A stretch of 48,367 nt of DNA from Singulisphaera sp. GP187 (GTDB taxonomy: Bacteria > Planctomycetota > Planctomycetia > Gemmatales > Gemmataceae), in NCBI GenBank assembly GCA_945905925.1, contig CAMDQN010000041.1, positions 1-48,367 of the forward strand, read 5' to 3'. This document shows, piece by piece, positions 6,112 to 44,599 of the stretch. A program made the position numbers and the translations under genes. Under the pieces are notes generated by a model. It was given only the letters and a program-made list of their open reading frames with translations. It made no database searches and was not told the DNA's origin. Position 1 is the stretch's first letter; each line of letters opens with the position of its first letter.

Positions 6112-6128
6112 CATCATCTCCGCGTATG

Positions 6129-6140
6129 GCCGCTTGCGGC
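6129..6140. repeat. Short palindrome in the pair A intergenic gap
   Basis: GCCGCTTGCGGC is a 5-bp stem with a TT loop, sitting between the DUF1549/DUF1553 stop and the DUF1501 start. The same 12 bases occur at 23460-23471 in the corresponding gap of pair C, in the opposite orientation relative to the genes. This suggests a dispersed short repeat rather than shared ancestry of the gap. Confidence 0.5.
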
Positions 6141-6144
6141 TTGA

Positions 6145-24939: not shown

Positions 24940-26289
24940 ATGATCAGAACCGGCCTGCTCACCGCCGTTGCCCTCCTCGTGTCGGCCCCGCTTGGGGCGG
25001 CCAATCAACCGAACGTCGTCATCGTGCTCGTGGACGATTTCGGCTGGGGCGATCCGTCGTGTTACGGCAACACGATGGTGAAGACCCCGAACATGGACCG
25101 ACTCGCGACGGAAGGCGTGCGGTTCACGCAGGGCTACGTCGCGGCGCCGATCTGTTCGCCGTCGCGGTGCGGTATCGTCACGGGACAGTTCCCGGCCCGG
25201 TGGAAGATCACCAGTTTCCTTCAAACGAAGGCCGGTAACCGAGCGTGCGAGCAAGCCGACTACCTCGACCCGAAGGCGCCGTCGCTGCCGCGAATGCTGA
25301 AGGAAGCCGGGTACGCGACCGCGCATATCGGCAAGTGGCACCTCGGCGGCGGGCGCGACGTAACCGACTCGCCGAAGTTCAAAGAATACGGTTACGACCT
25401 CGGACTCGGCACCTACGAAAGCCCGGAACCGGCCGCGCCGCTCGGCCTCAAGACAACCCCGTGGGGGCCGCAAGACAAGCTCGAACCGCAACAGGTTCCG
25501 CGTCACGAGCGGTCCAAGTGGATGGTCGATGAGACGCTCGCGTTCCTGAAGAAGAACACCGGGAAGCCGTGCTTCGTGAACCTCTGGCTCGACGACACGC
25601 ACACGCCATTCGTCCCCTCGGAAGCGCAGATGAACGCTGTGCGCGCGAAGGGCGAAGCCGAACTCAAGACGAAGTACAAGGCGGTTCTCGCGGACCTCGA
25701 CAAGCAAATCGGTCGGTTGCTCGACGGCCTGAAAGGAACGAACACACTCGTGCTGTTCCTCGGTGACAACGGGGCGTCACAGCCGTTCGCGCGCGAGCGC
25801 GGTGGCGGGTTGCGTGGGCAGAAGCTCAGTCTCTACGAGGGCGGTATCCGGGTGCCGTTCGTCGCGTGGTGGCCGGACAAGGTCAAGGGTGGCGTCGTCA
25901 ACGACAAGACGGTCATCGCGTCCATCGACTTCCTGCCGACGCTCGCGAGTGTGTGCGACGCGAAACTGCCGAAGGGCTACGCGCCCGACGGCGAGGATAT
26001 GACCGCTGCAATTAAAGGTGAAGCACCGGTTCGCACCAAACCACTGTTCTGGGAGTACGGGCGGAACGCGACCGCGTTCGCATACCCGAAGGACAACGAA
26101 CACCGCAGCCCGAACCTCGCCGTGCGCGACGGGAACTGGAAGTTGCTCATGAACGCCGACGGCACCGGTGCGGAGTTGTACGACCTCTCGAAAGACCACG
26201 TCGAAGCCAAGAACGTGATCGCGGCTCACCCCGAAGTCGCGAAGCGGCTCACCGAGAAAGTGCTGACCTGGAGGAAATCCGTACCGTGA
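24940..26289 (+). CDS. Sulfatase, Sec-exported (first of three coupled)
   Basis: The product is 449 residues, typical for type I sulfatases. A Sec signal (LLTAVALLVSAPLGAA) precedes NVVIVLVDDFGWGD, the first metal-binding strand with D32-D33. The formylglycine motif C72-SPSR76 is intact, so activation by a formylglycine-generating enzyme encoded elsewhere is expected. Other landmarks are GKWHLGG, the second metal cluster FLGDNGA, and a C-terminal LYDLSKDHVEAKN. It should hydrolyse sulfate esters, most likely on polysaccharides, in the periplasm or at the surface; substrate cannot be read from the sequence. A GAGGAAGGG ribosome site lies just upstream of ATG 24940. The stop overlaps the next start (GTGA). 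Confidence 0.93.
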   Translation: MIRTGLLTAVALLVSAPLGAANQPNVVIVLVDDFGWGDPSCYGNTMVKTPNMDRLATEGVRFTQGYVAAPICSPSRCGIVTGQFPARWKITSFLQTKAGNRACEQADYLDPKAPSLPRMLKEAGYATAHIGKWHLGGGRDVTDSPKFKEYGYDLGLGTYESPEPAAPLGLKTTPWGPQDKLEPQQVPRHERSKWMVDETLAFLKKNTGKPCFVNLWLDDTHTPFVPSEAQMNAVRAKGEAELKTKYKAVLADLDKQIGRLLDGLKGTNTLVLFLGDNGASQPFARERGGGLRGQKLSLYEGGIRVPFVAWWPDKVKGGVVNDKTVIASIDFLPTLASVCDAKLPKGYAPDGEDMTAAIKGEAPVRTKPLFWEYGRNATAFAYPKDNEHRSPNLAVRDGNWKLLMNADGTGAELYDLSKDHVEAKNVIAAHPEVAKRLTEKVLTWRKSVP

Positions 26290-27920
26290 GCAAATTCATC
26301 CTGTCAGCGATTGTGTTCGCGCTTCTCGCCGCACACGCGATCGCGGCGGAACCGGCGCCCAAGCCAAACGTGCTCCTCATCCTCGCCGACGATCTCGGGT
26401 ACTCCGACATCGGGTGTTACGGCGGCGAAATCGCGACCCCGAACCTCGACGCGCTCGCGAAGAACGGCCTGCGGTTCCGTCAGTTCTACAACGGCACGCG
26501 CTGCTGCCCGACGCGGGCCAGTCTGCTCACCGGGCTGTACGCGCATCAGGCCGGCGTCGGCGACATGACCGGCGACGAGGGCCAACCGGGCTATCGCGGC
26601 TTCCCGCAGCCGAACACGGTTACCATCGCGGAAGTGCTGAAGACGGCTGGCTATCACACGTCGATGGTCGGCAAGTGGCACCTCGGCGGGCCGAAGCGCC
26701 CGTCCCCGGTTGCTCGCGGGTTCGACGAGTTCTATGGCATGATCGGCGGGTTCAACTCGTGCTTCCAGGAAGACCCGTCCTACACCCGCCTGCCGGCCAA
26801 CCGCAAGAAGCGAACCTACGCGAAGGACGCGTTCTACAGCACCGACGCGTTCGGCGATTACTCACTCGATTTCCTCGCGCTCGCGCGCACCGAGAAGAAG
26901 CCGTTCTTCCAGTACCTCGCGTTCAACGCTCCGCACTTCCCGCTGCACGCGAAGCCCGACGACATCAAGAAGTACGCCGACACTTACACAGCCGGCTGGG
27001 ACAAACTGCGCGAGACCCGGCACGCGAAGCAGCTCGAACTCGGGCTGTTCCCGAAGGGCACGCCGCTCAGCCCGCGGTCGCCGTTCACCACGCGGCGCGA
27101 CTTCCTGCGTTCGGGCAACAACCCGGCGTGGGACAAACTCGACGATGACCGCCGCGCCGACCTCGCCCGCCGCATGGCCATCTTCGCCGCGATGGTCGAG
27201 TGCATGGACCGCAACATCGGCCGCGTCGTCGCGGACCTGAAGAAGAACGGCGAACTCGATAACACGCTGATCCTCTTCCTGAGCGATAACGGGGCGTGTG
27301 CCGAGTGGGATCCATTCGGGTTCGACGTCAACAGCGGGCCGAAGAACGTTCTGCACACCGGCGAGGAACTTGCCGCGATGGGAGGACCGAAGACGTACCA
27401 CAGTTACGGCAGCGGGTGGGCGAACGCGGGCAACACTCCATTCCGGCTCTACAAGCACGACTGCTACGAGGGCGGTATCCGCACGCCGCTGATCGCGCAC
27501 TGGCCGAACGGCATCACAACGAAGGGCGAGTTCCGCGACCACGCCGGTCACATCATCGACGTGATGGCGACGTGCGTGGAGGTGAGCGGGGCCGCGTACC
27601 CGGCGAAGCGGGGCGACACGGCGGTCACCCCGATGGAGGGCAAGAGTCTGCTGCCAGCGTTCGCGGGGAAGGCGACCGACCGCGACCTGCTCGCGTGGGA
27701 GCACGAAGGCAACCGCGCGGTTCGCATCGGTAAGTGGAAGCTCGTCGCGACGGCAGGCAAGCCGTGGGAGCTGTACGACATCGACACCGACCCGGTGGAA
27801 CTCACCGACCTCGCCGCGAAGAACCCGGAGCGCGTGAAGGAACTCACCGCGAAGTGGGACGCCTGGGCGAAGCGGTGCAACGTGCTGAAGGAACCGGTCC
27901 CCAAGAAAGGCAAGCCATGA
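26286..27920 (+). CDS. Arylsulfatase-type sulfatase, Sec-exported (second of three coupled)
   Basis: The product is 544 residues and starts with GTG 26286, overlapping the previous stop by four bases, so translation is probably coupled. The Sec leader (FILSAIVFALLAAHAIA) is followed by NVLLILADDLGYSDIG. The formylglycine motif is C73-CPTR77, the CxPTR variant common in planctomycete arylsulfatases. GKWHLGG, FLSDNGAC and a C-terminal ELYDIDTDPVELTDLA complete the family pattern. An insert of about 80 residues in the middle (KSDDIKKY-type region to RRDFLRSG) makes it longer than its neighbours. A distinct sulfate ester from the first enzyme is likely, given the sequence divergence (inference). 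Confidence 0.93.
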   Translation: MSKFILSAIVFALLAAHAIAAEPAPKPNVLLILADDLGYSDIGCYGGEIATPNLDALAKNGLRFRQFYNGTRCCPTRASLLTGLYAHQAGVGDMTGDEGQPGYRGFPQPNTVTIAEVLKTAGYHTSMVGKWHLGGPKRPSPVARGFDEFYGMIGGFNSCFQEDPSYTRLPANRKKRTYAKDAFYSTDAFGDYSLDFLALARTEKKPFFQYLAFNAPHFPLHAKPDDIKKYADTYTAGWDKLRETRHAKQLELGLFPKGTPLSPRSPFTTRRDFLRSGNNPAWDKLDDDRRADLARRMAIFAAMVECMDRNIGRVVADLKKNGELDNTLILFLSDNGACAEWDPFGFDVNSGPKNVLHTGEELAAMGGPKTYHSYGSGWANAGNTPFRLYKHDCYEGGIRTPLIAHWPNGITTKGEFRDHAGHIIDVMATCVEVSGAAYPAKRGDTAVTPMEGKSLLPAFAGKATDRDLLAWEHEGNRAVRIGKWKLVATAGKPWELYDIDTDPVELTDLAAKNPERVKELTAKWDAWAKRCNVLKEPVPKKGKP

Positions 27921-29308
27921 CACGCGGTCTCCGGTGGCTGGTCGCGCTGGCGCTCGGGTTCGCGCACGCTCCGGGATTCGCAATCGCGGCGGACCCGCCG
28001 AAACCGAACGTCGTGCTCTTTCTCGCCGACGACCTCGGGTGGGCCGACTGCTCGCCTTACGGCGGGAAGGAAGTTCCCACGCCGAACATGGCCAGGCTCG
28101 CGGCCGACGGAGTGACGCTCACCCACGCATTCGTCGCCTCTCCGAGCTGCGCCCCGAGCCGTGCGGCTCTACTCACCGGGCTGGACCCGATGCGCAACGG
28201 GGCCATGCTCAATCACGCCAGGCCGAAGGCCAACGTGAAGAAGTGGCCAGCGTACTTCAAGGAACTCGGGTACGAAATCGTCGCCATCGGGAAGGTAGCA
28301 CACTACGCCCAGGTGACGGAGTACGGGTTCGACCACACCAGCCACTTCAAGTACCACGAGGACGAGTGTGTTGAAACTGCGGTCAAGTGGCTCGAAGCCC
28401 GCAAGCCCGGCAAGCCGCTGTGTTTGCTGGTCGGAACCAACTGGCCGCACGTCCCGTGGCCGAAGGAGACGAAGTTCGACTCTGCGAAACTGAGCCTTCC
28501 GCCGACACTCGTGGACACGAAGGAAACCCGGCAGGCCCAGGCGCGATACCTGGCCGCCGTCGCGAACGCCGACCGCGACCTCGGACTGGTGCACGATGCG
28601 GCTCGCAAGCACCTCGCCAAAGATACGCTGTTCCTGTTCACCGCGGATCATGGATCGCAGTTCCCGTTCGGCAAGTGGAACGGTTACGACGCGGGCATTC
28701 GTACACCCCTCATCGCTGCGTGGCCGGGGCGCATCAAACCAGGAACGACCTCCGGCGCGATGGTGAGCTGGATCGACCTGCTCCCGACGTGTCTGGACGC
28801 GATCGGGGCGAAGCCGCCCGAGGGACTTAGCGGGAAGTCTTTCCTCAGTGTTCTTCGCGGAGAGAAAGACGCGCACCGGGACAAGGTGTTCGTGACTCAC
28901 AGCGGCGACGGAGCCATGAACCGGTATCCGCTGCGTGCGGTTCGCACGCGCGACTGGAAATACGTCCGCAACCTCGACTCGGACGCCGAACACCACACGC
29001 ACGTGGACCTGGCAAAGGCCGGAACGGACGGACGCAACTACTGGGATTCGTGGGCCGAGAAGGCGAAGACCGATCCGGTCGCGGCAGCCGTCGTGAAACG
29101 CTACCACAAGCGCCCGGCCGAGGAGGTGTACGACCTCGCGGCCGACCCGTGGGAACTGAAGAACCTCACCGCGGATCCCAAACACGCGGAGAAGTTGAAA
29201 GCACTACGCGCCGACCTCGACACCTGGATGAAGAGCCTCGGCGACGAGGGCTTGAAAACCGAGCGTGCCCTCCCCGACCCAGCGCCCAAGAAAAAAGACA
29301 AACCCTGA
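27917..29308 (+). CDS. Sulfatase (iduronate-2-sulfatase-like), Sec-exported (third of three coupled)
   Basis: The product is 463 residues from ATG 27917, in an ATGA overlap with the previous stop. The leader (WLVALALGFAHAPGFAIA) is followed by NVVLFLADDLGWAD. The formylglycine motif C78-APSR82 is intact. FTADHGSQ is the second metal cluster. The layout SPSCAPSRAALLTGLDP, then GNWPHVPW-like KPLCLLVGTNWPHVPW, then a late RYPLRAVRTRDWKYVRN, resembles the iduronate-2-sulfatase/heparan-type branch, though this is only resemblance. The C-terminus is Lys-rich (PAPKKKDKP). It completes a three-sulfatase cassette following pair C. Confidence 0.92.
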   Translation: MTRGLRWLVALALGFAHAPGFAIAADPPKPNVVLFLADDLGWADCSPYGGKEVPTPNMARLAADGVTLTHAFVASPSCAPSRAALLTGLDPMRNGAMLNHARPKANVKKWPAYFKELGYEIVAIGKVAHYAQVTEYGFDHTSHFKYHEDECVETAVKWLEARKPGKPLCLLVGTNWPHVPWPKETKFDSAKLSLPPTLVDTKETRQAQARYLAAVANADRDLGLVHDAARKHLAKDTLFLFTADHGSQFPFGKWNGYDAGIRTPLIAAWPGRIKPGTTSGAMVSWIDLLPTCLDAIGAKPPEGLSGKSFLSVLRGEKDAHRDKVFVTHSGDGAMNRYPLRAVRTRDWKYVRNLDSDAEHHTHVDLAKAGTDGRNYWDSWAEKAKTDPVAAAVVKRYHKRPAEEVYDLAADPWELKNLTADPKHAEKLKALRADLDTWMKSLGDEGLKTERALPDPAPKKKDKP

Positions 29309-31972: not shown

Positions 31973-34900
31973 TCACGGCTTCGGGTCCGGGTGCTTGTCC
32001 TTCGAGTGGGCGGGCACCTTGTACCCGACTTCGAGAAACCCGAGCAGGTCGAGTACCTCCTCGCGAGTGAGGACGTTCAGCAACCCGGTCGGCATCGGAG
32101 ATACCTTCGACGGCACCTTCCGCACCACGTCCTTCACCGGAATCCGCGTCACCGAATTCGGGGTCAGCAGGTTCGCGAGGACGTGGTACTCGCTCCCCAC
32201 TTCCTTCAACACCACACCGGTGACGACGCGGTCATCGGCCAGTTCGAGCCGCTGATTGAGATACTTCTCAGGGATCTCGCTCGACGGTTCGATGATCTGT
32301 CGGAGGAGTTTGTCGCCCTTGTACCGGTCGCGCACGTCGCACAGATCAGGTCCGAGGTTCACGCCATGGCCGAACACCTGATGGCACTGCGTACACTGAG
32401 CCTTCATGAACGCTTTCAGCCCGCGTGCGGCCGTCTCCTTGTCTTGCTTCACGGTGATGTCGGCGAAGTCCTTCATCGTCCACTCGGCAACAACAGATGG
32501 TTTGCGGGCCGCGAGCAGCGCCGGCACGTCCGCGAGGTTCTTCGCGACGACCATCTCGCCTTTCATTACCACCCAGTGCCCAGGGAACGTACACACGAAG
32601 GGGTAAATGCCCGGTTCCGCGGGCGCCGTGAACCGCATCACCGCGACCTGCGATTGCCGCGTCGAGCCGACCATTGGGGTCGCGTGCAGGATCAGATTCT
32701 TCTTCTCGGGCGGGATGAAGTCGGAGTTGGCGTTGCGCGGGTCTTTCGCCATCTCGTTGGCGGCCATCCCGACTTCCGCCAGCGCGTCCGGCTTCACGAT
32801 CACGAGGTTGTGGTCGGTCGCGTCCGGGTTGGTGAACACGATCTTCACCGGTTGACCGGTCGTGACCGCGAACTGATCGACGGTAAACAGCATCCGCTCC
32901 GGGAGGCACGACACTCGCACGGCGGCGAGGTTCTTCTGCGCGTCGAACTGCGCCTGAGCCGCGGTCGGAACCGGTTCCTTGAAGTCGTCGCGGGGCGTGA
33001 GTTCCTTGAGCAACTTCGCGACACCGTACTTCGGGTTCGCTTCCCAGATCGGCTTCAGCGTGTGCGACCCAAGCGCGCACCGGACGGCGTAATCGAGGTG
33101 TTCGCCGCGCGGGTGCTTGAACACGTCCAGCAGCGCGTCGAGCGCGTCCGGCGTGCCGACGTAACTCGCGGCAATAGCCGCCTCCATTCGGACGATTCCG
33201 TTCGGGTCGTTGGCCGCTTTGCGAAGCAGCACTGTGGCGTCGGTAAGGTGCGGGTGCCAGTACCGGAGTTGCTGCGTAGCGGCGGCGCGGGCGTGGTGGT
33301 CCTCACACTTCAGCAGTTCCCGGAGTAGCAGAGCGTTCACCGCGCCGACCCAGCGGTACGCCCACACCGCCTCAATCTGGTGGTGCCGGTATCGCGGGTC
33401 GGTCGGCTTCAGCTCCGTCACCCACTTGTCGAGCGCCGCGCGGACCGCCGCCGGGTCGCGTTCGCGCAGTTCGCGCTTCGCCCAAAAGCGGTAGCGAGAT
33501 TCGGGGCGCTTCAACACGTCGAGCAGTTCGTTAACAGAATCGCCCGCGATCTTCGGCGCGTCTTGAAGCGTGTGACCCTTCGCGGTGATCCGCCAGATGC
33601 GTCCGGAGTGCCGGTCGCGCCGCTCGTCGCGGAGCGAGTATTGCATGTGCCCCTTCACCGGGTTGTACCAGTCACACACGAACAGATCGCCGCGCGGCCC
33701 GAACTGCAGATCGACCGGAATGAAACTCAGGTTGGTCGAGAACAGCAGATCGCCGACGTACTCCTCCGCGAATCCGAACGACCCCTCTTTCCACTTGTGA
33801 ATCTCGACGCGGTTCGTGGGTTTGTACCGCACCTTGATGAACCCGCCCTGGAGTTCCTTCGGGAAGGTCGGCGAATCGACGAACTGGTGCCCGCACACGC
33901 CCGAGTACGCTTGCAGCCCCTTCGGTGCCGGGTGCTGCTGCGGGTACGCAGGGTCGAGCGAGTGAAATGCCGCAGCGTAGACCGGGTGGCTCGCGACGTG
34001 TTGCCCCCAGTCGTCGAACGTCACGCCCCACGGGTTGGTGCTGGGGTAACTGCCGAAGCTGGTCAACCGGTGAGTTCGCGGGTCGAACCGGAACCACCCG
34101 CTGTTCTGCTGCCGCACTGGGCCGTACGGCGTCTCCACTTGCGAGTGGTGGAAGACCGACTCGCGGAAGATGAGTTCGCCGTCGGGGGTCCAGGTGAGGT
34201 CGTGGAGCGAGTGGTGCGAATCCTCGGTGCCGAACCCGCTCAGCACGGTCCGGCGCACGTCCGCTTTGCCGTCACCGTCGGTATCCTTGAGGAAGGTCAG
34301 GTTCGGCTGCTCGGACACGTAGACCCCGCCGTCGCCGAACTCGAACGACAACGGGATGTGCAGCTTGTCCGCGAACACCGAGCACTTGTCGGCCTTGCCG
34401 TCGTTGTCGGTGTCTTCAAGGACGATGATCTTGTCGTTCGGCTCGTGGCCAGGGTATACGTGTGGGTACGTGTTCGAGCAACTTACCCACAGCCGCCCCT
34501 TCGCGTCCCACCGCATCTGAATCGGGTTGGCGAGATCGGGGAACTGCTCTTCACCCGCGAACAGGTTGACATCGAAGCGCGGATCAACTTTGAACGCTTG
34601 ACGCTCCTTCTCCGCCGTCATCCACTCGTTCACCCCGCGAGCCTGAACCGTCTTCGGCAGCGCCGGCACGTTTAAATCATCGACCTTCGCCGGCACCGCC
34701 TTTCCCTGTGCGATTTCCCAGATGCGGCGGTCGCGGTTGGCAACCATCAGGTCGAAGTTCCGCATCGCCGGGAGGAAGTCGAGGTAGCCGTAGTCCTTGT
34801 TCCGGCCGCCGGTGTAGTAGAACGTGTTCAGCGGTCGAAATCGCCGGAAGAACTGACGGTCCTTGTCGATCACGGCTTGCCTGAGCACCGGGTCCACCGC

Positions 34901-35746
34901 CGGTGGCACTGCCCCAAACGTCCCCTTGTAGAGCGCGTCGGCGAACAGCGCGTAACCCTTCTCGTTCAGGTGGCAACCGTTGGTCGTGAGGTCGGTGGCG
35001 GGATCGCGCATCGCGTCGAGAGTCGGCGCGAACACGTCCACGAACCCGACGCCCTGTTCCTTCGCGATCTCGCGCATCGCGTCCGCGTAGAGCTTGATGC
35101 GGGCGTTGTTCAGGTCCGCGGCGGGCACTCCTTTGACGTTCTCGTTGGCGACCGGCGACACGAGCACGATCCGCGAACCGGTCTTGCCGTTGAACGCTTT
35201 CGTTTTCAGGTCGGTGAGGTACGTGGCGAGTTGTTTCTTGAACGCGGGCAACCCGGCTTCGCCCGCGAACGACTCGTTGAAGCCGAACGCGGCGAAGATC
35301 ACGTCCGCCTTTTCGTGCGTGAGGTGCTGTTCGGTATCGGCGAAGTTCGCGGGGCGCGGCTGGAGACCGATCTCGTCCGCCGACCACGCGAGCGTCCGTA
35401 CCGTGAGTGCGTGTTCGGGGAACTGCTTCTGGAGCATGGCCTCGAAGTGGCCGTACTCCTGCGCCCGCTCGAACAGCGTGTTACCGATGAACGCGATCCG
35501 GTCGCCCGCGGCAAGCTTCAGCGGCAGTGCGGTCGCGACAGCCTTCGTTGCTTTCGGTCGCGGTGCGGTCTTCTCGTAAATACCGAACTTCGCGAACTCT
35601 CCGTCCGACGGAGTCGGGTCCGCGGGCGTCTTCTTCCCTTTCGTGACTTTGTCCTGAGCGGCGGTCGTCCCGACCTCCGGGAGCGATGCGACAAGGGAAG
35701 CGCCGACGAGAGCGACCGCGACCAGTCGTGTGCGCGTGACGGGCAT
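31973..35746 (-). CDS. PVC multidomain protein: SGNH-like + dehydrogenase propeller + HEAT + cupredoxin + cytochrome c
   Basis: The product is 1,257 residues from ATG 35746; the longer frame adds 14 residues before the signal peptide (LVAVALVGASLVASL). Residues about 75-265 resemble an SGNH hydrolase, but the nucleophile block reads IGNTLF instead of GDS, while FNES and NGCHLN recall blocks III and V; it is probably non-catalytic. About 375-725 is the PVC membrane-bound-dehydrogenase propeller (WDAKGRLWVS, DTDNDGKADK). About 740-915 is HEAT-like. About 945-1070 is a cupredoxin with the full type 1 copper set H979, C1052, H1057, M1061. The C-terminal haem domain has C1118-TQ-C1121-H1122 and M1218 (SPMPTG). 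A copper and a haem centre at one end of a propeller suggest internal electron transfer. It is last in a five-gene minus-strand run and should be exported. Confidence 0.9.
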   Translation of the reverse strand: MPVTRTRLVAVALVGASLVASLPEVGTTAAQDKVTKGKKTPADPTPSDGEFAKFGIYEKTAPRPKATKAVATALPLKLAAGDRIAFIGNTLFERAQEYGHFEAMLQKQFPEHALTVRTLAWSADEIGLQPRPANFADTEQHLTHEKADVIFAAFGFNESFAGEAGLPAFKKQLATYLTDLKTKAFNGKTGSRIVLVSPVANENVKGVPAADLNNARIKLYADAMREIAKEQGVGFVDVFAPTLDAMRDPATDLTTNGCHLNEKGYALFADALYKGTFGAVPPAVDPVLRQAVIDKDRQFFRRFRPLNTFYYTGGRNKDYGYLDFLPAMRNFDLMVANRDRRIWEIAQGKAVPAKVDDLNVPALPKTVQARGVNEWMTAEKERQAFKVDPRFDVNLFAGEEQFPDLANPIQMRWDAKGRLWVSCSNTYPHVYPGHEPNDKIIVLEDTDNDGKADKCSVFADKLHIPLSFEFGDGGVYVSEQPNLTFLKDTDGDGKADVRRTVLSGFGTEDSHHSLHDLTWTPDGELIFRESVFHHSQVETPYGPVRQQNSGWFRFDPRTHRLTSFGSYPSTNPWGVTFDDWGQHVASHPVYAAAFHSLDPAYPQQHPAPKGLQAYSGVCGHQFVDSPTFPKELQGGFIKVRYKPTNRVEIHKWKEGSFGFAEEYVGDLLFSTNLSFIPVDLQFGPRGDLFVCDWYNPVKGHMQYSLRDERRDRHSGRIWRITAKGHTLQDAPKIAGDSVNELLDVLKRPESRYRFWAKRELRERDPAAVRAALDKWVTELKPTDPRYRHHQIEAVWAYRWVGAVNALLLRELLKCEDHHARAAATQQLRYWHPHLTDATVLLRKAANDPNGIVRMEAAIAASYVGTPDALDALLDVFKHPRGEHLDYAVRCALGSHTLKPIWEANPKYGVAKLLKELTPRDDFKEPVPTAAQAQFDAQKNLAAVRVSCLPERMLFTVDQFAVTTGQPVKIVFTNPDATDHNLVIVKPDALAEVGMAANEMAKDPRNANSDFIPPEKKNLILHATPMVGSTRQSQVAVMRFTAPAEPGIYPFVCTFPGHWVVMKGEMVVAKNLADVPALLAARKPSVVAEWTMKDFADITVKQDKETAARGLKAFMKAQCTQCHQVFGHGVNLGPDLCDVRDRYKGDKLLRQIIEPSSEIPEKYLNQRLELADDRVVTGVVLKEVGSEYHVLANLLTPNSVTRIPVKDVVRKVPSKVSPMPTGLLNVLTREEVLDLLGFLEVGYKVPAHSKDKHPDPKP

Positions 35747-35881: not shown

Positions 35882-37348
35882 TCAGTCCGGGTTGGTCGTC
35901 AGGTCGCCGGCGGGTTGCTTGTCCTTCATGTTCCACACGCGAACTTTGCCTGTAAAGTCGCCGGCGAAGACGCGTCCGCCGTCGTGCGAGAACACCACCT
36001 TTGAGGGCACATCGGTGAAGCCTTCCAGCCGCGCGACCTGGCTGCCGTCGGCCTTCCAGATGCGGGCCGTGTTGTCGCGCCCGCAGGTGACAAGTTGACC
36101 GTCGCGGGCATACTGCACCGCGAGCACGCCGGGCAGTTTGTTCCGCGCCGCGCCCACGGCCTTCGCATCGACTTGCGCGTTGATCGAGCGCGTCGGGAAC
36201 CCGTCCTCCGCGTACCACAAGATGACGCGGCCATCTTCGCTGGACGACGCCAGCATTTGCGAATCGGCGCGCCAGCTCAACGCGGTCACCGCGTCCTTGT
36301 GGTCTCCGAGCGTGAACACGATGCCGCCGGTTCCCGGCTCCCACACATACGCGCCGCCGTTGCGGTCGCCGCTCGCGAGCATCTCGCCGTCTGGGCTGAA
36401 CTCCATCGTGGTCACCCAGTCAGTGTGTTTCTTGATCTTGCGCTTCAGTTCGCCGGTCGCGGTGTCGTAAATCTTGACGAGTTTGCCGGGGCCACCGAGG
36501 GCCACGAGTTTGTGGTCCGGGCTGATGTCGGCCGCGAGCACGATGTCGGCCTCGTCGCCGATCTCGGTCACACGCTTGCCGGTGGTCACGTCCCAAATCA
36601 CAACGCGGCCTGCGGACGCGCCGCGTCCGCCACCGGCCAGCAGCCATTTCCCGTTGCGGCTGAACTTTAGCACGTGAACGACGCGCTCCGGAAACGGCAG
36701 CATGCCGAGCAACTTCAGCGTGTCGGAGTTGTACAGCAGAACGCGCTCGTGCCCGGCAACGGCCAGGACCGGCGCCCACGGACTGGCGGCCATCGCGGTG
36801 ACCGGGTGCGCGCGTTCGGTCTTCGCGAGCTTCACGTCGGGGAGCGCGCCGGGCATCGGTGGCGGGCCGTCCGGCTTGCCCTTCGTGATCGCGACCGGGT
36901 CGATCTCAACTTTGCGGGCAGCGGTCTTGGCAGCGCCCACGGCGGTTTCAGGCGCGCCGCCCTCGATCCACTTCTTGATAACGGCGAGGTCGGCGTCGGG
37001 CACCTTCGGTCCCTTCGGCGGCATCTTCGGTTCGATCTCGTGCGCGGTCATGCGATAGAGGTTGCTCTGACCGGGGTTGCCGGCTTTCACCGCTTCGCCG
37101 CTGGACCCACCGGCCATCAGCGCCTGGTACGTGGACACGTCCAGGTCGGACGTCGCTTTGTCCGCGTTGTGGCAATTCAGGCAGTGCTTGCGCAGGATCG
37201 GCTGGACGTGATCCTTGTACGTCACGGCCGCGGCCTTTGGATCGACCTTTGGATCAACTTTCGGCGCCCCGGTCTTCGGCGGCTGCGCGTGCGCGAGGCC
37301 AAACGCCAGAGACGAGAGTACGATCAGGCAAAGGGTGCGCGTCGGCAT
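35882..37348 (-). CDS. Exported cytochrome c (PSCyt1-type) / WD40 propeller fusion
   Basis: The product is 488 residues from ATG 37348, where a Sec leader (LCLIVLSSLAFGLAHA) begins; the open frame upstream comes from a palindromic repeat. A linker of PKVD repeats precedes the haem module with C56-LN-C59-H60 and the Met ligand in EPKMPPKG (about 109). WD40 repeats follow (about 180-480), visible as GKWLLAGGG, DWVTTMEFSPDGEMLASGD, DAVTALSWRADSQMLASSSEDG and VWNMKD. The architecture is common in planctomycetes and is expected in the periplasm. It lies between the Ig-like/DUF1549 gene and the large PVC fusion on the same strand. A role as electron relay or scaffold for the neighbouring haem proteins is inferred. 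Confidence 0.9.
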   Translation of the reverse strand: MPTRTLCLIVLSSLAFGLAHAQPPKTGAPKVDPKVDPKAAAVTYKDHVQPILRKHCLNCHNADKATSDLDVSTYQALMAGGSSGEAVKAGNPGQSNLYRMTAHEIEPKMPPKGPKVPDADLAVIKKWIEGGAPETAVGAAKTAARKVEIDPVAITKGKPDGPPPMPGALPDVKLAKTERAHPVTAMAASPWAPVLAVAGHERVLLYNSDTLKLLGMLPFPERVVHVLKFSRNGKWLLAGGGRGASAGRVVIWDVTTGKRVTEIGDEADIVLAADISPDHKLVALGGPGKLVKIYDTATGELKRKIKKHTDWVTTMEFSPDGEMLASGDRNGGAYVWEPGTGGIVFTLGDHKDAVTALSWRADSQMLASSSEDGRVILWYAEDGFPTRSINAQVDAKAVGAARNKLPGVLAVQYARDGQLVTCGRDNTARIWKADGSQVARLEGFTDVPSKVVFSHDGGRVFAGDFTGKVRVWNMKDKQPAGDLTTNPD

Positions 37349-37376
37349 GATATATATAAATGGGTTGGGTGTTCGA

Positions 37377-37453
37377 GGTTTAGCGTTGGTCCCGCAGGGG
37401 CCACTTTGCGTATGCGGGCAGAGGCGCGGCCCCTGCGGGACCAACGCCAAACC
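37377..37453. repeat. Imperfect 26-bp-arm palindrome (dispersed repeat)
   Basis: Arms 37377-37402 and 37428-37453 are reverse complements with one mismatch, around a 25-base loop. The core is CCCGCAGGGGCC. A single related arm recurs at 47070-47095. It fills the gap between two genes of the minus-strand run and could act as an mRNA-stabilising hairpin or be a REP-like element. Confidence 0.75.
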
Positions 37454-37488
37454 TATCGTGGGAGGGCGCTGGGCTTTGCTCAACTCAA

Positions 37489-40125
37489 TCAGTGGTTGAA
37501 CGTGAACTCGGTGGAGTTAAACAACCCCCACAGGATGTCGCCGTAGACCGTCTGCGCGGCGGTGGCCTCGAACCGCTTGCGGGTCACGGTCTGAGCCTGT
37601 TCGAGCGTAGTAACCTGCTTGGCGAGCGCCGCGGCTTCCTTCGAGTCCTTCGGCAACTTGGCGAGATCGGTCTTCATCGCTTTCAGACGATCCTCACCGC
37701 GCTGGAAGACGACGTCGAGCTTCAGTTGCACCGCGGCCAGTTCGACAAGGCGGTCCGGCTCCGTCTCGCGGCGCACGATGTCGGCGAGCTTCTTCACCTC
37801 AGTGGCAGTCGGCTTGCGGCACAGCGTCCGCAGGTACAGTTCCTCGATGATCGCTTCTGGCGTCTTCTTCTCCGCGAGCAGCGCGGGCATGAGCTTACCT
37901 TGCGCGATCTTTAACGTGATCGTGTCGCCGTTGACGAGGTGCAGCGCCTGCGACAGGTTCGCCTCCATGTTCACCTCGCACGAACACGCGGTCTCACGAG
38001 GAGCGCGGCCAAAGGTCGTCAGGAAGTAGGTGGACACCTCGCCGCTGTGAATCTGCACGGCGCGCGTTCCGGGCGGCGATAGTGCAAAGCGATCCTCGGT
38101 GCCGGTGACGCGAGTGATCGTGTCGAGCAGCACTTCGGCGCGCAACCGGCGCACATAAGAGTGCGAGAAGTACACCTCGTCCAGCTGGTTCGTCGGGTTT
38201 GTCGCAGCCGCGAGTTGGTACGTTCGCGAGTTGCAGATGTCGCGCACGAGTTTCTTCTTGTCGAACTTGTACGCGGCCAACTTCTTGCCCAACTCTTCGA
38301 GCAATTCCTTGTTGCTCGGCGGGTTACTGATGCGCACGTCGTCCACCGGATCGACGATCCCGCGACCGAAGAAGTGCGCCCAGATGACGTTCGCCATCGT
38401 CTCGCGGAACGCGGCGTTGTCGGCCGATGTCAGCCACCCGGCCAGCGCCTTGCGCGGGTCTTGGCCTTCGACCTGCGGCGTGGCGCCGCCCAGGAATTTG
38501 GGCTTCATCTGCCGTCCGTCTACCGGGTGCGCCACGGTGTTCGCGACGTTGTTGTTCGTGACCACAACCTCGCGACCCTCGACGCCGCGCTTCAGGTTCA
38601 CACCCGCGAAGAACGCCGAGAACCCGTAGTAATCGTCCAACGTCCAGCGGTCGAATGGGTGGTTGTGGCACTGCGCACACTGGATGCGGGTGCCCAGAAA
38701 CACCTGCGCGATATCTTCAGCGGTCTTCTGCGGCGTGAGCCGTTCGCTCGCGGTGTAAAGGTTCGCGGTCGGCGACTTGAAGTTGCTCCCGCTACCGACG
38801 AGCAACTCGGCCGCGAACTCGTTCAGCGGGCGGTTCTGCGCCATCTGATCCTTGACCCAGGCGGCGTAGGAGAACATCGCCTTCGCGTCGCGCCCGTACT
38901 GCGGCACCTGGTTGTACGCCCGGATGCGGAGCAGTTCGCCCCACTTCATCGTCCACACGTCCACGAACTCGGGCCGGTCGAGCAGCGCGTCGATCAACTT
39001 CTCGCGCTTCTTGGCGTCCTTGATTGCAAGGAACGCGTCGTACTCGTCGCGCGTCGGCGGCAGCCCGATCAGGTCGAGGTACACGCGCCGCAAGAACTGT
39101 TCGTCGGAACACAGATCCGACGGCGCGAGGTGCAATTTCTTGAGTTTGTCGAAGACGATCGCGTCGATGTAGTTGTGTTCCGGCGGGTTCGGCCACGTGA
39201 ACTTGTCGTCGGTGGGAAGCACGATCACTTCGCTGCCGACGGTGTACTTGCCGAAGCGGGCGAAGACGAACGCGCCACCGCGACCGCCGCCCGTCACCAC
39301 GCCGTCCTTGCCGATCGCCGCGATCGCCTCGTTGTTGGTCATGTAGAGCGCGAGGCGCGTCACGTCGCGCACGGAGCCATCACTGTACTTCGCGAGCACA
39401 ACGGTCTTCTGTGTCGGCGCCTTGCCGGAGAACACCACTTTCGAGGGGAGCAACTCAACACCGACCGGTTCGGGCGCGTTCGGGCCGTCGTCCGGGGCGC
39501 CAGCCTTCAGCCAACTGAGCAATGTCTTGTAGTCGTCGTGTTTGGTGTCGAAGAGTTTACCGCCGGTGTGCGCGACCGTGCCGGTGACCTTCTCAAGCAT
39601 CAGGCTCTTTTCCGGCGCGGCGAGATCGACGCGGCGACCGACGATCGCGCGCGTGAGGCGGTAGTAGTCGCCGGCCGGGTCGTACCCGAACAGCGACAGC
39701 ATGAACCCGTCCTTGCCGCGAGCCGCGCCGTGGCAACTGCCGTTGTTGCACCCGTGCTTCATGAACACCGGCATCACGTCGAGCCGGAAGCTTACGGCCC
39801 TCGCCGTGCCCGCGTCCACCACCACGACGGGTACTTCGGCTTTCAAGCCACCGGCTTCGACCATGAGTTTGGTCTTGCCGTCCTTCTTCGGGCTGAGCGT
39901 TTGCCCGGCGAGGGTGGCGACCGCAGAGTCAGCGACGGAGAACTTCGCGGTCGCGGTCACGTCTGTGGTCGTGCCTTTCTCGTCGGTCACCTGAACGACG
40001 AGCGTTTGTCGATCGTCCTGCCCCTTGAGTTCGACGGTCGCGGGGAAGACTTTCAGCGTGGACGCGGCCTCCGCGTGTGCGGCGAGCGCGAGAACGGCGA
40101 TAGTTGCGAGGTACAAGGTGCGCAT
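37489..40125 (-). CDS. Ig-like (BIG2) + DUF1549/DUF1553 protein with CX4CH motif (pair D)
   Basis: The product is 878 residues from ATG 40125, with a Sec leader (LYLATIAVLALAAHAEA). The frame upstream of this ATG is repeat-derived and was excluded. A bacterial Ig-like domain (about 22-104) precedes the haem-like module, in which the motif is C126-NNGS-C131-H132, that is CX4CH instead of CxxCH. A second Ig-like segment lies at about 222-303. DUF1549 (about 317-500) has C483-AQ-C486-HNHPFDRW and DUF1553 about 550-800. No coiled-coil or LamG insert separates the two. This is the Ig-bearing subtype of the family and differs from the three other copies here. It belongs to a run with DUF1501 and PPC proteins upstream and two cytochrome fusions downstream. 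Confidence 0.92.
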   Translation of the reverse strand: MRTLYLATIAVLALAAHAEAASTLKVFPATVELKGQDDRQTLVVQVTDEKGTTTDVTATAKFSVADSAVATLAGQTLSPKKDGKTKLMVEAGGLKAEVPVVVVDAGTARAVSFRLDVMPVFMKHGCNNGSCHGAARGKDGFMLSLFGYDPAGDYYRLTRAIVGRRVDLAAPEKSLMLEKVTGTVAHTGGKLFDTKHDDYKTLLSWLKAGAPDDGPNAPEPVGVELLPSKVVFSGKAPTQKTVVLAKYSDGSVRDVTRLALYMTNNEAIAAIGKDGVVTGGGRGGAFVFARFGKYTVGSEVIVLPTDDKFTWPNPPEHNYIDAIVFDKLKKLHLAPSDLCSDEQFLRRVYLDLIGLPPTRDEYDAFLAIKDAKKREKLIDALLDRPEFVDVWTMKWGELLRIRAYNQVPQYGRDAKAMFSYAAWVKDQMAQNRPLNEFAAELLVGSGSNFKSPTANLYTASERLTPQKTAEDIAQVFLGTRIQCAQCHNHPFDRWTLDDYYGFSAFFAGVNLKRGVEGREVVVTNNNVANTVAHPVDGRQMKPKFLGGATPQVEGQDPRKALAGWLTSADNAAFRETMANVIWAHFFGRGIVDPVDDVRISNPPSNKELLEELGKKLAAYKFDKKKLVRDICNSRTYQLAAATNPTNQLDEVYFSHSYVRRLRAEVLLDTITRVTGTEDRFALSPPGTRAVQIHSGEVSTYFLTTFGRAPRETACSCEVNMEANLSQALHLVNGDTITLKIAQGKLMPALLAEKKTPEAIIEELYLRTLCRKPTATEVKKLADIVRRETEPDRLVELAAVQLKLDVVFQRGEDRLKAMKTDLAKLPKDSKEAAALAKQVTTLEQAQTVTRKRFEATAAQTVYGDILWGLFNSTEFTFNH

Positions 40126-40156
40126 ATGAATGATTGGTTGAGTTTGGTTTCTCAAG

Positions 40157-40288
40157 AACCTCTCCCCCCAACCCCCTCCCCTAAGAAGGGAGGGGGAGAA
40201 GAACCAAAACAGGAGAGGCATTTCGCCAACAGGTCGTGTCTTCGGTTTTAAGCCCCTCCCTTCTTAGGGGAGGGGTTGGGGAGGGGTT
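40157..40288. repeat. Long imperfect C/G-rich inverted repeat
   Basis: A C-rich arm (about 40157-40196) and its near complement (about 40252-40288) share the core CCCCTCCCCTAAGAAGGGAG and are separated by about 55 bases. It fills the gap between the PPC-domain gene (stop 40294) and the DUF1549 gene (start 40125). It is probably a dispersed intergenic element that may fold in the polycistronic mRNA. Confidence 0.75.
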
Positions 40289-40293
40289 GCCTT

Positions 40294-42768
40294 CTATTTC
40301 CCCTTCGGGGGCGCGCCGCGTTCGGCGTCGATTCGCAGGATGCCGTTGCCACTGAGCTGCCGTACCGACTGGCCGTTGTCGATCACGGTCACGTCGAGCA
40401 CCACCCCCTGGTAGTTGCCGACGAGAGCGTCCGTGGTGGCTCGCAGGGTAAACGTCACTTCCTTGTCGGCCGACGTGATCTCTCGCATCGGTTCGACCAG
40501 TTCCACGCCGCGCGGCAGACGGGCGAGCGTTACCTTCGCCTTGCCCTCAAACGCTTGAAGGTGGTTCAGTTTGCAGACCAGCGTCGTCGTCTTGCCTCGC
40601 TCGATCGACGTGCGCGGGATGCGCGCCTCGACGTGCGGTTCCGCCACCGCAAGTTTGAACGGCTGCGAGGCGATGTAAGTGCGGCCGTCGCCGTCCTGGT
40701 AGCCGCGGCGGGCGGAGCCGCTCATTGCGGTAAGCGTAATTAGGTGCGTGCCCGCTGTCGCGTTGCGGGATGCACCAAGTTGGTACACGCCCTCGGTCTG
40801 ACCCGCAGGCACCGTCACCGGCGTCGCGGTGCTCACACCAGTCGGCTTGCCTTCGAGTTGCACCGTCACCGGTCCATCGAAGCCCTTCGCACGGACGACA
40901 GTGAACTTGAGGGCCATCTCGCCGTTCTGAACGAGCGCCGACTTCGGCTCTTCCACTTTCACGCTGAAAGGGGCCGGTTCGGTGATCGCGAGCGCGAGCC
41001 GGTCGATCGGGGTGTGCATGTAGTAATCGTTGTTGCCGTAAGCGTTCATCAGGATCGTCTGGCGGTAGCCGCTCTCCAGCGCCGAGCCGGCGCCGACCGG
41101 TCGCACAACCAGGTCAATGAGCAGCGATTCGGGCTTGGTGCCTTCGGCCGCCTCGAACACGACCGGCACTTTCGTCATGCCGGGCGTGATCTTGGGTGCG
41201 TGCAGCGTCACGCCTTTGGGCAGGTTCACGCCGACCAGTTCCAACTCGCCCGCGAATGGTCGGTTCGTGGCGAAGATGCCGACTTGCACCGTGGTGCGGT
41301 TCCCGGCCGGGATTGAGATCGCTTGCCGCAACTGAGGCGCGAACTGGTTTTCGGGTTCCGGCGCGATGTACGTGTGGACCGCGTTCGTTTGCGGCGTGAC
41401 CTCGACGCGATAGACGTAATCCGCGCCGCCCTCGCCGCGTTCGTCTTCGATGCCGAGGATGTACTCGCCGTCGGCCGGTGCGGTGAACTCCAGAACCGGG
41501 TCGTGCGTCTCGCGGTTGAGGCCGCCCGCGGGCGCGTAGCCAAGTTGGTTCGGTCGCGAGTCAGTGACACGTTGACCCGGCGCGCCGGTCTTCGCGCCCA
41601 CGGCCTTCACCCAGATGACCGGGTCGAGCGGCGAGCCGAGCGTTTGCGCCATCGCGTGGAACTTGAATTGCTCGCCCTTCTTTGCGCGGAACTTGAAACA
41701 GTCCACATCGCCGGGTTTGTCGATGATGCCGTTGAACGCGACCGGCAGCGAAGCGACACCGGTCGCCGTTTCAGGCGCGTCGTTCGGTTCGACTTCCAGG
41801 ACGTTCGGGAACGCTGACACCCGGAGCCGGTTCGGCGAGGGAGCAGGTACGCCATCGGCCACCGCGACGAATGGGAAGTCACCGGGCGCCTTCGACAGTT
41901 TTACGCTCTGGCTCCACGCGCCTTTCGGGTCGCCGAGAATCTTGATCTTGAGTTCTTCGCCCGCAGGACCGCCCGCGGGATAGATCGCGGTGGGCCGGCT
42001 GAAAGTGCCGACGTGAAGTCGGTACACGTCGCCCGCCCCGTTGTACATGCTGTGCCGCACTTCCACGAAATACGCCCCATCGCGATCCGCGAGGATCGAC
42101 AACACCGGGTCTTGCACAAACAGCGCGGAGTCGTCCACGCTGGCGAGTTTCTTGCCGTCGGCGTCGTAAATCGCGAGGTGCAAGTCGGGGATACCGCGTT
42201 CGACGCCCAGCCGCGCCGCCTCGATCTCGGCCGACACGCGCTGACCCTTCTTTACTTCGATCCGATACAGGTCGACGTCGGTCGCATCGTTGAGTTTGCC
42301 GAGGACGGTGGAGTTCGCGGGAACACTGGTCGCGGTCTCGCGCTTGTCGTTACGCCCCTTGGTGGGAATCTCGTTCTCCTCGACGGTCGGGAACGGCCCG
42401 ACGAAGAATCGCTGGTATTCGGTCAGCCCGTCGGCGGTACGAAGACGCAGCCCGTGTGGCCCGAGCGGACAATCGGCCGCGATCTTGATCTTCACGCGAA
42501 CGCGAAGCCCCGGTTCGACAGGCACTGACTTGCCGTTCGGCCCGGTCGCGATCTCGACCACCTCGATGGATTGGACCGTGATGCCGCTCTCGTAGAAGAG
42601 AACCTCGCGCGGTTGCTCCAAGTGGCGACCGGAGAACTCAACCTCAACGGTCGTCCCGCGCTGCCCGCCGGGCGGCGACAGTCGCGCGAGTTTCGGCGTA
42701 CCGGCAGCGGCGCTGGTCGCGGCAAAGAGGACTGCGACGCAAGCGAGGGTCGTGCGGAGGGATCGCAT
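40294..42768 (-). CDS. Exported PPC-domain (pre-peptidase C-terminal) beta-sandwich protein
   Basis: The product is 824 residues with a Sec leader (TTLACVAVLFAATSAAA). The entry KLARLSPPGGQRGTTVEVEF resembles an IPT/TIG-like strand pair. Two PPC-type domains follow: about 150-235 (DVDLYRIEVKKGQRVSAEIE ... GAYFVEVRH) and about 325-455 (DVDCFKFRAKKGEQFKFHA ... DGEYILGIED). The remainder is a series of beta-sandwich segments ending with FTLRATTDALVGNYQG. No catalytic motif is seen, so it is probably a binding or adhesive component. It sits between the DUF1501 and DUF1549 genes of the same run, a position in which PPC proteins recur in planctomycetes (recalled, not checked). Confidence 0.88.
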   Translation of the reverse strand: MRSLRTTLACVAVLFAATSAAAGTPKLARLSPPGGQRGTTVEVEFSGRHLEQPREVLFYESGITVQSIEVVEIATGPNGKSVPVEPGLRVRVKIKIAADCPLGPHGLRLRTADGLTEYQRFFVGPFPTVEENEIPTKGRNDKRETATSVPANSTVLGKLNDATDVDLYRIEVKKGQRVSAEIEAARLGVERGIPDLHLAIYDADGKKLASVDDSALFVQDPVLSILADRDGAYFVEVRHSMYNGAGDVYRLHVGTFSRPTAIYPAGGPAGEELKIKILGDPKGAWSQSVKLSKAPGDFPFVAVADGVPAPSPNRLRVSAFPNVLEVEPNDAPETATGVASLPVAFNGIIDKPGDVDCFKFRAKKGEQFKFHAMAQTLGSPLDPVIWVKAVGAKTGAPGQRVTDSRPNQLGYAPAGGLNRETHDPVLEFTAPADGEYILGIEDERGEGGADYVYRVEVTPQTNAVHTYIAPEPENQFAPQLRQAISIPAGNRTTVQVGIFATNRPFAGELELVGVNLPKGVTLHAPKITPGMTKVPVVFEAAEGTKPESLLIDLVVRPVGAGSALESGYRQTILMNAYGNNDYYMHTPIDRLALAITEPAPFSVKVEEPKSALVQNGEMALKFTVVRAKGFDGPVTVQLEGKPTGVSTATPVTVPAGQTEGVYQLGASRNATAGTHLITLTAMSGSARRGYQDGDGRTYIASQPFKLAVAEPHVEARIPRTSIERGKTTTLVCKLNHLQAFEGKAKVTLARLPRGVELVEPMREITSADKEVTFTLRATTDALVGNYQGVVLDVTVIDNGQSVRQLSGNGILRIDAERGAPPKGK

Positions 42769-42823: not shown

Positions 42824-42909
42824 CTTCGCCCCGAAGGGGCGTTGGGTGGGCCGCCGAAGACCCAGGGCTTTCGCCCTGGGCTATTACCCAACGCCCCTTC
42901 GGGGCGAAG
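42824..42909. repeat. Nested double palindrome (24-bp outer arms, 8-bp inner stem)
   Basis: Outer arms 42824-42847 and 42886-42909 are exact reverse complements with core GCCCCGAAGGGGCG. Between them CCCAGGGC (42861-42868) pairs with GCCCTGGG (42873-42880) around TTTC. It fills the gap between the DUF1501 stop (42930) and the PPC start (42768) and could fold in the mRNA of the run. Confidence 0.85.
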
Positions 42910-44252: not shown

Positions 44253-44599
44253 GCGAAGACACCTCTGTGCGGGTGAACGGAAGGTAGGTTGGGGCGGGAA
44301 AACGTTCAAAGAGCGTTAACTTCGGCGGTGTGTACCAGGTCGAATATCGAAGGTGAAGCGCCCGGCTAAGGGACGCCAACGACACAATGGAAATATAGTA
44401 CCTTTGGGCCACAATCACGCAACTGCGAATCCGCTCGATTTGAATCCGGTCAGAACCACAACCAGCACAGCGCTCGTGTGATCGCCAGATCATCGACGGC
44501 GTGCGCGAAAGCGATTCCCATTACCAACTGGACCGGTGGTGCCTGCTGCGAGTACGTTGGTGATCCGATGTTGCCACCGTCTCCCGTGCGAGGCCAACC
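44253..44599. other. Divergent intergenic region (347 bp)
   Basis: This gap separates the divergent DUF1501 and tandem-hydrolase genes. It is richer in A+T near 44385-44430, where a minus-strand promoter is proposed. AACG...CGTT (about 44302-44317) gives a short inverted repeat of doubtful meaning. No coding frame with family resemblance was found. Confidence 0.5.
44395..44422 (-). promoter_or_regulatory. Candidate sigma70-type promoter for the five-gene minus-strand run
   Basis: On the minus strand, TTGCGT (44422-44417) and TACTAT (44400-44395) are separated by 16 bases; an alternative -10 TATATT lies three bases downstream. Transcription would begin near 44388, giving a leader of about 135 bases before ATG 44252. 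Confidence 0.4.

Follow-up and report, generated by a model that had tools for sequence, protein, structure and literature searches.

What might a planctomycete do with one protein that joins a degenerate SGNH domain, a beta-propeller, HEAT repeats, a blue-copper domain, and a c-type heme domain in a single chain? The question is raised by a gene of Singulisphaera sp. GP187 on the reverse strand at positions 31973 to 35746 of a 48,367-nucleotide stretch (contig CAMDQN010000041.1 of GenBank assembly GCA_945905925.1), the whole of which was analyzed and is referred to here as the window. With a probability of about one in two, we read the product as an exported PVC-type redox protein. Its propeller site would oxidize a carbohydrate or a compound derived from one, probably encountered in the breakdown of sulfated glycans, and the electrons would pass from the propeller to the blue-copper domain, then to heme c, and finally to a periplasmic respiratory acceptor. 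The polar residues that the propeller site appears to keep invariant include the counterpart of a catalytic His but not the Arg residues that classically bind pyrroloquinoline quinone (PQQ). The SGNH domain would be a mostly nonhydrolytic remnant that probably holds the substrate, and the HEAT repeats would tie the propeller to the redox domains. Support for this reading comes from metal ligands that are invariant, from a fold nearest to sugar dehydrogenases, from the match of H512 to their catalytic His, and from the linkage of copper and heme modules in other genes. The carbohydrate context is suggested by fusions to ThuA and sulfatase domains, an F5/8C domain in a paralogue, and the density of sulfatase genes near orthologues.

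One chain with complete copper and heme sites

The gene is a single open reading frame (ORF) that begins with ATG at 35746 and encodes 1257 amino acids free of internal stops. Its parts are as follows.

31973 to 35746, reverse strand: whole gene, 1257 amino acids; signal, SGNH domain, propeller (DUF7133/TIGR02604), HEAT repeats, cupredoxin, heme c domain (TIGR02603)
35654 to 35746, reverse strand: predicted Sec-type signal sequence, residues ~1 to 31, recognized by eye
34877 to 35536, reverse strand: degenerate SGNH domain, residues ~71 to 290 (Pfam, alignment, Foldseek)
33575 to 34627, reverse strand: beta-propeller of PQQ sugar dehydrogenase fold, residues ~374 to 724 (Pfam, NCBIfam, fold comparison, profile alignment)
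32999 to 33535, reverse strand: HEAT-like helical repeats, residues ~738 to 916 (HEAT_2 match; helices in the model)
32540 to 32932, reverse strand: type 1 cupredoxin domain, auracyanin-like, residues 939 to 1069 (Pfam, Foldseek, VIA-align)
32810 to 32812, reverse strand: copper ligand H979 (sequence and alignment)
32564 to 32593, reverse strand: copper ligand loop C1052-H1057-M1061 (sequence and alignment)
32030 to 32434, reverse strand: heme c domain (TIGR02603), residues ~1105 to 1239 (NCBIfam)
32381 to 32395, reverse strand: CTQCH heme attachment motif, residues 1118 to 1122 (sequence and alignment)
32093 to 32095, reverse strand: M1218, probable distal heme ligand, in a conserved S-x-M-P motif

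Matches above the Pfam gathering scores cover GDSL_2 (residues 94 to 267; 58.6 against 32.9 bits, a match to the SGNH/GDSL domain profile), DUF7133 (379 to 592), HEAT_2 (807 to 882), Copper-bind (949 to 1067), and Cytochrom_C (1106 to 1154), with Lipase_GDSL and Cupredoxin_1 matching under theirs. The NCBIfam model TIGR02604 ("PVC-type heme-binding CxxCH protein") scores 213.8 bits over a cutoff of 122.2, and TIGR02603 ("putative heme-binding domain") scores 80.1 bits over a cutoff of 68.15. Judged by these scores, the protein is a member of the PVC-type heme-binding CxxCH proteins, which are named but functionally uncharacterized; it is probably exported. No PSCyt1, PSCyt2, or PSD domain was found in it among Pfam matches with expect values (E) up to 0.1, and no RNA family or tRNA was found inside the gene (31973-35746).

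A first-pass annotation of this DNA had described one protein with these five parts, the type 1 copper site and c-type heme among them, and had named eight ligands. The intact ORF and the Pfam and NCBIfam matches bear out the make-up, and the ligands are all in place: H979, C1052, H1057, and M1061 for copper and C1118, C1121, H1122, and M1218 for heme, with a single CxxCH in the chain. The copper set (His, Cys, His, Met) is complete within a predicted cupredoxin fold, as in type 1 cupredoxins, and the heme motif is likewise complete and accompanied by a conserved Met that would serve as a ligand, as in c-type cytochromes.

We modeled residues 58 to 1257 with AlphaFold2 from 60 sequences (mean predicted local distance difference test score [pLDDT], 83.1; predicted template modeling score [pTM], 0.78) and the tail, residues 930 to 1257, from 75 sequences (pLDDT, 83.6; pTM, 0.53). 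The best Foldseek matches of the full model in the PDB are three auracyanins, followed by BT4096 and SGNH esterases, with N2O reductase and DFPase further among the matches, and VIA-align superposes the cupredoxin of the tail model on auracyanin 6kol at Z 18.1 and 1.8 Å over 120 residues with 38% identity. In these models, the copper domain is auracyanin-like. Two other assignments were rejected: azurin proper, for which TIGR02695 scores 33.5 bits against an equivalog cutoff of 105.1, and CuA, which requires two Cys in the ligand loop, where this domain has C1052 only. The copper and heme sites had also been called adjacent; this holds along the chain, where M1061 and C1118 are 57 residues apart, but concerns the chain and not space, since at a pTM of 0.53 the placement of the tail domains is not trustworthy.

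All 88 aligned rows keep the copper ligands and CxxCH, and M1218 is kept in 87 of 87. At least two loci in this set are repeats (L002/L038 and L008/L051, more than 98.5% identical), and three pairs exceed 95% identity in a check that covered loci complete at both ends. Relatives came from a public-genome scan with the copper-heme tail, which gave 138, the best 80 of which were used; those with a stated group are planctomycetes, and a few are given only as "bacterium." Because H979 is present in one of the two scan patterns, its conservation was partly selected for; the remaining seven ligands are absent from the patterns. A second conserved His near the heme motif (CxxCHxxxGHG), residue 1127 (32366-32368), is present in 86 of 88 rows. 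One row set kept 74 of the 80 loci (L093, L099, L103, L061, L108, and L113 were removed), and a further one kept 71 rows once repeats and open-3' and short rows were taken out. L093, L099, and L103 were also dropped as near-duplicates from neighbor clustering, the N-terminal extension count (from which open-5' ORFs were left out as well), and the sulfatase count, and the identity comparison of loci omitted these three, L110, and open-ended ORFs.

Compared with L038 over 1256 codons, the gene differs at 93 first, 63 second, and 347 third codon positions and, on this pattern, looks to be under purifying selection. At the protein level, the copper domain is 96% identical to that of L038, the linker and heme domain 94%, the propeller 93%, and the SGNH domain 82%. 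FastTree joined the two with support of 100 on a stem of 0.3, and their position among other lineages is weak (support, 17). Some match (E up to 1e-50) was found in 96 of 99 related genomes, with at most six candidates scored per genome. Full-length matches of at least 63% identity occur in at least eight of these genomes among the matches listed, namely, the same genome, another from its genus (89%), and six from other families of the class (63 to 71%), the remaining listed matches being 35 to 47% identical. This patchy distribution suggests transfer or repeated loss.

The propeller and the modules that accompany it

VIA-align places the propeller nearest the AA12 pyranose dehydrogenase structures 6i1q and 6h7t (Z 24.4, 285 residues, 3.1 to 3.3 Å), and sugar dehydrogenases hold ranks 1 to 9 among the 50 fold matches listed (Z 22.6 to 24.4). 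DFPase-type propellers are close behind (Z ~21 to 21.6, ~260 residues). A search with a propeller profile against PDB sequences gave weak local matches alone (best E, 0.062), so fold comparison and a GSDH-family profile were used instead. The latter was compared with 25 orthologue rows (the window's own and 24 loci hand-picked from the 80) and 23 paralogue rows (L009 to L030 and L120) and aligned with a probability of 91.5% at 16% identity. This alignment pairs H512 with the GSDH family's catalytic His, a residue with a catalytic role in sGDH, and N571 with the Asn of the family's Arg-Asn pair. H511 and H512 are kept in all 48 rows, over which many polar residues of the propeller are invariant.

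The copper and heme modules recur in other genes. Of the 392 genomes sampled from the phylum, at least 72 match a cupredoxin profile (E up to 1e-10), a lower bound because at most nine candidates were scored per genome. Thirty loci were opened, made up of L120 and the top scorers; no fewer than seven were already among the 88 rows, and more than 80 further matches lie beyond them. In 26 of the 30, CxxCH follows the cupredoxin at a distance of 47 to 64 residues. The cupredoxin ORFs of L134, L135, and L145 end straight after the copper domain without CxxCH, and the L145 match is listed with one TAG within the frame.

The other end of the protein also occurs by itself: in 9 of 22 paralogue loci, the ORF ends after the HEAT part, without CxxCH or a copper motif. 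We followed ORFs of more than 150 amino acids within 3.3 to 3.6 kb downstream of 11 free-standing SGNH-propeller-HEAT genes, comprising eight of these nine (L012, at a contig edge, was left out) and three chosen by length, irrespective of any CxxCH in their own ORFs. The next same-strand ORF carries a heme domain in seven cases and a cupredoxin with heme in one. All eight downstream ORFs pass the TIGR02603 cutoff (92.6 to 101.5 bits against 68.15), and HEAT_2 is above its gathering score in four of them and below it in four. From these split pairs and the fusion counts, the SGNH-propeller-HEAT and heme units tend to go together, fused or neighboring, with copper optional; the 26 of 30 linked loci and the 8 of 11 split pairs both count in favor of the redox reading. 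Shorter proteins with a cupredoxin and TIGR02603, of 657 and 650 amino acids, were seen in L044 (17529-19499, reverse strand) and L184 (1099-3048, reverse strand), with no TIGR02604 or SGNH match.

The genome itself has 23 TIGR02603 matches, two Cytochrom_C_asm matches, and two COX1 matches. A Pfam Copper-bind search of this genome missed even the window's domain and was dropped as insensitive in favor of our own alignment. A second member with cupredoxin and heme was found, a 1731-amino-acid ORF with an F5/8C (galactose-binding-like) domain before the cupredoxin.

Further links to carbohydrates lie at the N terminus and in the surroundings of orthologues. Of 60 loci with a closed 5' end, 13 have more than 200 residues ahead of the SGNH part, and these extensions hold ThuA in 10 and a sulfatase in 2. 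The ThuA addition is seen, for instance, in L004 (in a stretch common to L005 and L006) and in L040, and the extended loci are spread over several clades. L102 (5885-11008) and L111 (1934-7396) encode proteins of 1708 to 1821 amino acids in which an N-terminal sulfatase is followed by SGNH, propeller, HEAT, copper, and heme parts; L103, more than 95% identical to L102, has the sulfatase fusion too. ORFs of a sulfatase cluster, built by single linkage and with one member checked by Pfam, number 19 within 3 kb of orthologues (362 kb of flank) versus 8 beyond (528 kb), and of the 11 lying within 1.5 kb, 10 share the orthologue's strand. What we take to be a sulfatase-type signature is present in 23 of these 27 ORFs. 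In L087, the sulfatase-cluster ORF at 5753-7123 (forward strand) lies one base upstream of the same-strand orthologue ORF, stop to stop.

In the window, the gene has the following neighbors.

24940 to 29308, forward strand: three sulfatase genes (24940-26289, 26286-27920, and 27734-29308), 2.7 to 7 kb from the gene's 3' end
35882 to 37483, reverse strand: WD40 propeller with PSCyt1 heme domain, upstream
37489 to 40221, reverse strand: PSCyt2-PSD1 (DUF1549/DUF1553) protein, upstream
40294 to 42768, reverse strand: PPC-domain protein, upstream
42930 to 44309, reverse strand: DUF1501 protein, upstream

An Acido-Lenti-1 RNA (RF01687; 48.6 bits, gathering score 37) lies between the PPC and DUF1501 genes at 42861-42906 on the forward strand. 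We found no conserved operon among the orthologues, no recurrent neighbor cluster being present in more than 21 of the 77 loci; one such cluster was considered as a partner and rejected, as it mixes several heme proteins.

Weighing the alternatives

Several observations count against a propeller that oxidizes sugars and delivers electrons to copper and heme. The GSDH alignment places T570, I676, and V678 at the counterparts of the three PQQ-binding Arg, which we take to be R228, R406, and R408 of sGDH, an assignment whose register could shift at 16% identity; on this sequence, the pocket might be inactive. Four of the 30 cupredoxin loci lack CxxCH in the ORF as read, and 3 of the 11 free-standing paralogues have no heme or cupredoxin ORF in the downstream stretch examined. 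The sulfatases in the window are on the opposite strand, with two other genes intervening, and 7 of the 19 sulfatase ORFs near orthologues come from the related loci L074, L078, L084, and L090 and are therefore not independent. Neither DUF1501 nor PSCyt2-PSD1 is enriched near orthologues.

Because the three Arg counterparts are missing, PQQ use is unsupported; the pocket may work with a different cofactor or a metal, or may have lost its activity. The paralogues also lack Arg at 570 and 678; position 676 is Arg in 23 of 23 paralogues versus Ile in 25 of 25 orthologues, so the pocket of the orthologue group differs, and position 642 is Lys in all 25 orthologues versus Ile in all 23 paralogues. 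A GSDH relative, L150, has Ser at the third Arg place, a caution for the Arg comparison. A search of the genome for pqqC gave no match and is uninformative, as its controls were silent too. The propeller thus shares the fold of the AA12 and other PQQ-dependent pyranose and aldose dehydrogenases (6i1q, 6h7t, 3a9g, and 2g8s; Z 22.6 to 24.4) but differs from them at 14 to 16% identity, in the absent Arg counterparts, and in having no match to PF07995 (Pfam, E up to 0.1). The earlier designation as a dehydrogenase propeller therefore holds for the fold, H512, and N571 and does not extend to the PQQ-type Arg or PF07995.

The main rival, which we consider possible, is that the propeller and SGNH domain only bind a glycan or a partner, while the copper-heme tail relays electrons between other redox proteins and no oxidation takes place in the chain. 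Loss of the PQQ-type Arg and, mostly, of the SGNH Ser and Asp fits this view, as do the higher conservation toward L038 of the copper (96%) and heme (94%) parts and the existence of copper-heme proteins without a TIGR02604 match, such as that at L044:17529-19499. The propeller, however, is itself 93% identical to that of L038, and its invariant polar residues over 48 rows are seemingly more than a scaffold needs.

We regard it as unlikely that the propeller is an SMP-30/DFPase-like hydrolase, lactonase, or isomerase with a redox tail that serves another step. DFPase-type folds do score close to the best and the classic PQQ ligands are incomplete, yet the top nine fold matches are all of the sugar dehydrogenase type, that family's catalytic His is matched by H512, and a heme domain is in the chain or adjoins it in most members examined.

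For the SGNH domain, the comparison is with what we take to be the canonical motifs: GNT stands in place of GDS and NGCH in place of DxxH, and GFNE is present. Among 73 rows, the nucleophile position 90 is Thr in 54 (T90 in the window protein), Ser in 5, Met in 5, Gly in 4, Ala in 4, and Leu in 1, and in 74 of 75 rows, Asn replaces the Asp of the Asp-His pair. His259 (74 of 75), Gly155 (75 of 75), and Asn157 (74 of 75) are kept. With these residues retained and the Ser and Asp mostly lost, the domain is, by its sequence, degenerate as an esterase yet not drifting freely. Its description at first pass as an inactive esterase-like domain agrees with the loss of Ser in 68 of 73 rows and of Asp in 74 of 75, though not with the 5 of 73 rows that retain Ser. 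A working esterase with a Thr (or Ser) nucleophile, making a two-enzyme chain of deacylation and then oxidation, seems quite improbable to us. The three retained residues, Thr or Ser at position 90 in 59 of 73 rows, and Foldseek matches to esterases such as Axe2 and sialate O-acetylesterase would be in keeping with it; Met, Gly, Ala, or Leu at position 90 in 14 of 73 rows and Asn at the Asp place in nearly all argue against it.

Mis-assembly or a chance fusion of unrelated genes, conceivable for a draft genome in 251 contigs, is refuted by 59 loci from other records, including the chromosomes CP036272, CP036432, and CP036526, that align across residues 58 to 1257 or nearly so (L061 stops early).

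Relation to known systems and to the family

The solved auracyanins (6kol, 2aan, and 1qhq) have the same fold as the copper domain (Z 16.5 to 18.1; Foldseek identity, 29 to 35%), but they come from Chloroflexus and Roseiflexus as chains of 123 to 140 residues, whereas the domain in the window sits inside a large chain beside heme. Nitrous oxide reductase 1fwx and caa3 subunit II 2yev are both among the Foldseek matches, weak overall (TMt, 0.20 to 0.23). Their layouts are, as we take it, analogous, with a propeller and cupredoxin in 1fwx and a cupredoxin followed by cytochrome c in 2yev; their cupredoxins presumably hold CuA with two Cys, in contrast to the one Cys and type 1 set here. Among PVC-type heme-binding CxxCH proteins (TIGR02604, TIGR02603, and DUF7133), the window protein lies above both curated cutoffs; neither family name mentions a cupredoxin or SGNH domain, whereas here blue copper stands between the HEAT repeats and heme.

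We found no description of the architecture among the open-license papers listed. The portions available of PMC4585252, PMC8567305, and PMC5566968 contain nothing on the window protein. Planctomycete-specific PSCyt/PSD heme proteins, of unknown function and often near sulfatase genes, have been described, some carrying carbohydrate-binding modules (He et al. 2017, PMC5615132); as far as the accessible part of that paper goes, they have PSCyt1-3 and PSD1-5 domains rather than DUF7133/TIGR02603, and no cupredoxin is described. Chloroflexi fusions of NirK or NirS with cupredoxin and cytochrome c likewise hold cupredoxin and heme c in one chain, but these are nitrite reductases with different domains in a different order, and in the part of the article at hand, its authors consider that the NirK fusion may be an assembly artifact (PMC8756737). 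An azurin survey, in its available portion, gives one Planctomycetes hit, judged contamination or a wrong annotation (PMC8779525). The domain in the window is not azurin proper, yet its profile matches at least 72 of the 392 sampled genomes, a result with a bearing on blue copper in the phylum. To the first-pass annotation, our analysis adds the auracyanin-like character of the copper domain, the forms extended by ThuA or a sulfatase, the two-gene split forms, and the higher density of sulfatase ORFs near the gene.

A more far-reaching version of the redox reading, which we hold to be doubtful, would be a PQQ-free oxidation of sulfated sugars outside the cytoplasm. In it, the propeller would have a novel cofactor or metal site and be wired through blue copper to heme c in one chain, the sulfatase and ThuA parts would prepare or finish the substrate, and copper would be a plug-in relay in some members.

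The family names are silent on function, although this genome alone has 23 TIGR02603 matches. With a testable path through pocket, copper, and heme, and with sulfated glycans as a substrate class suggested by fusions and neighborhood, the protein could reveal the function of the wider PVC heme family.

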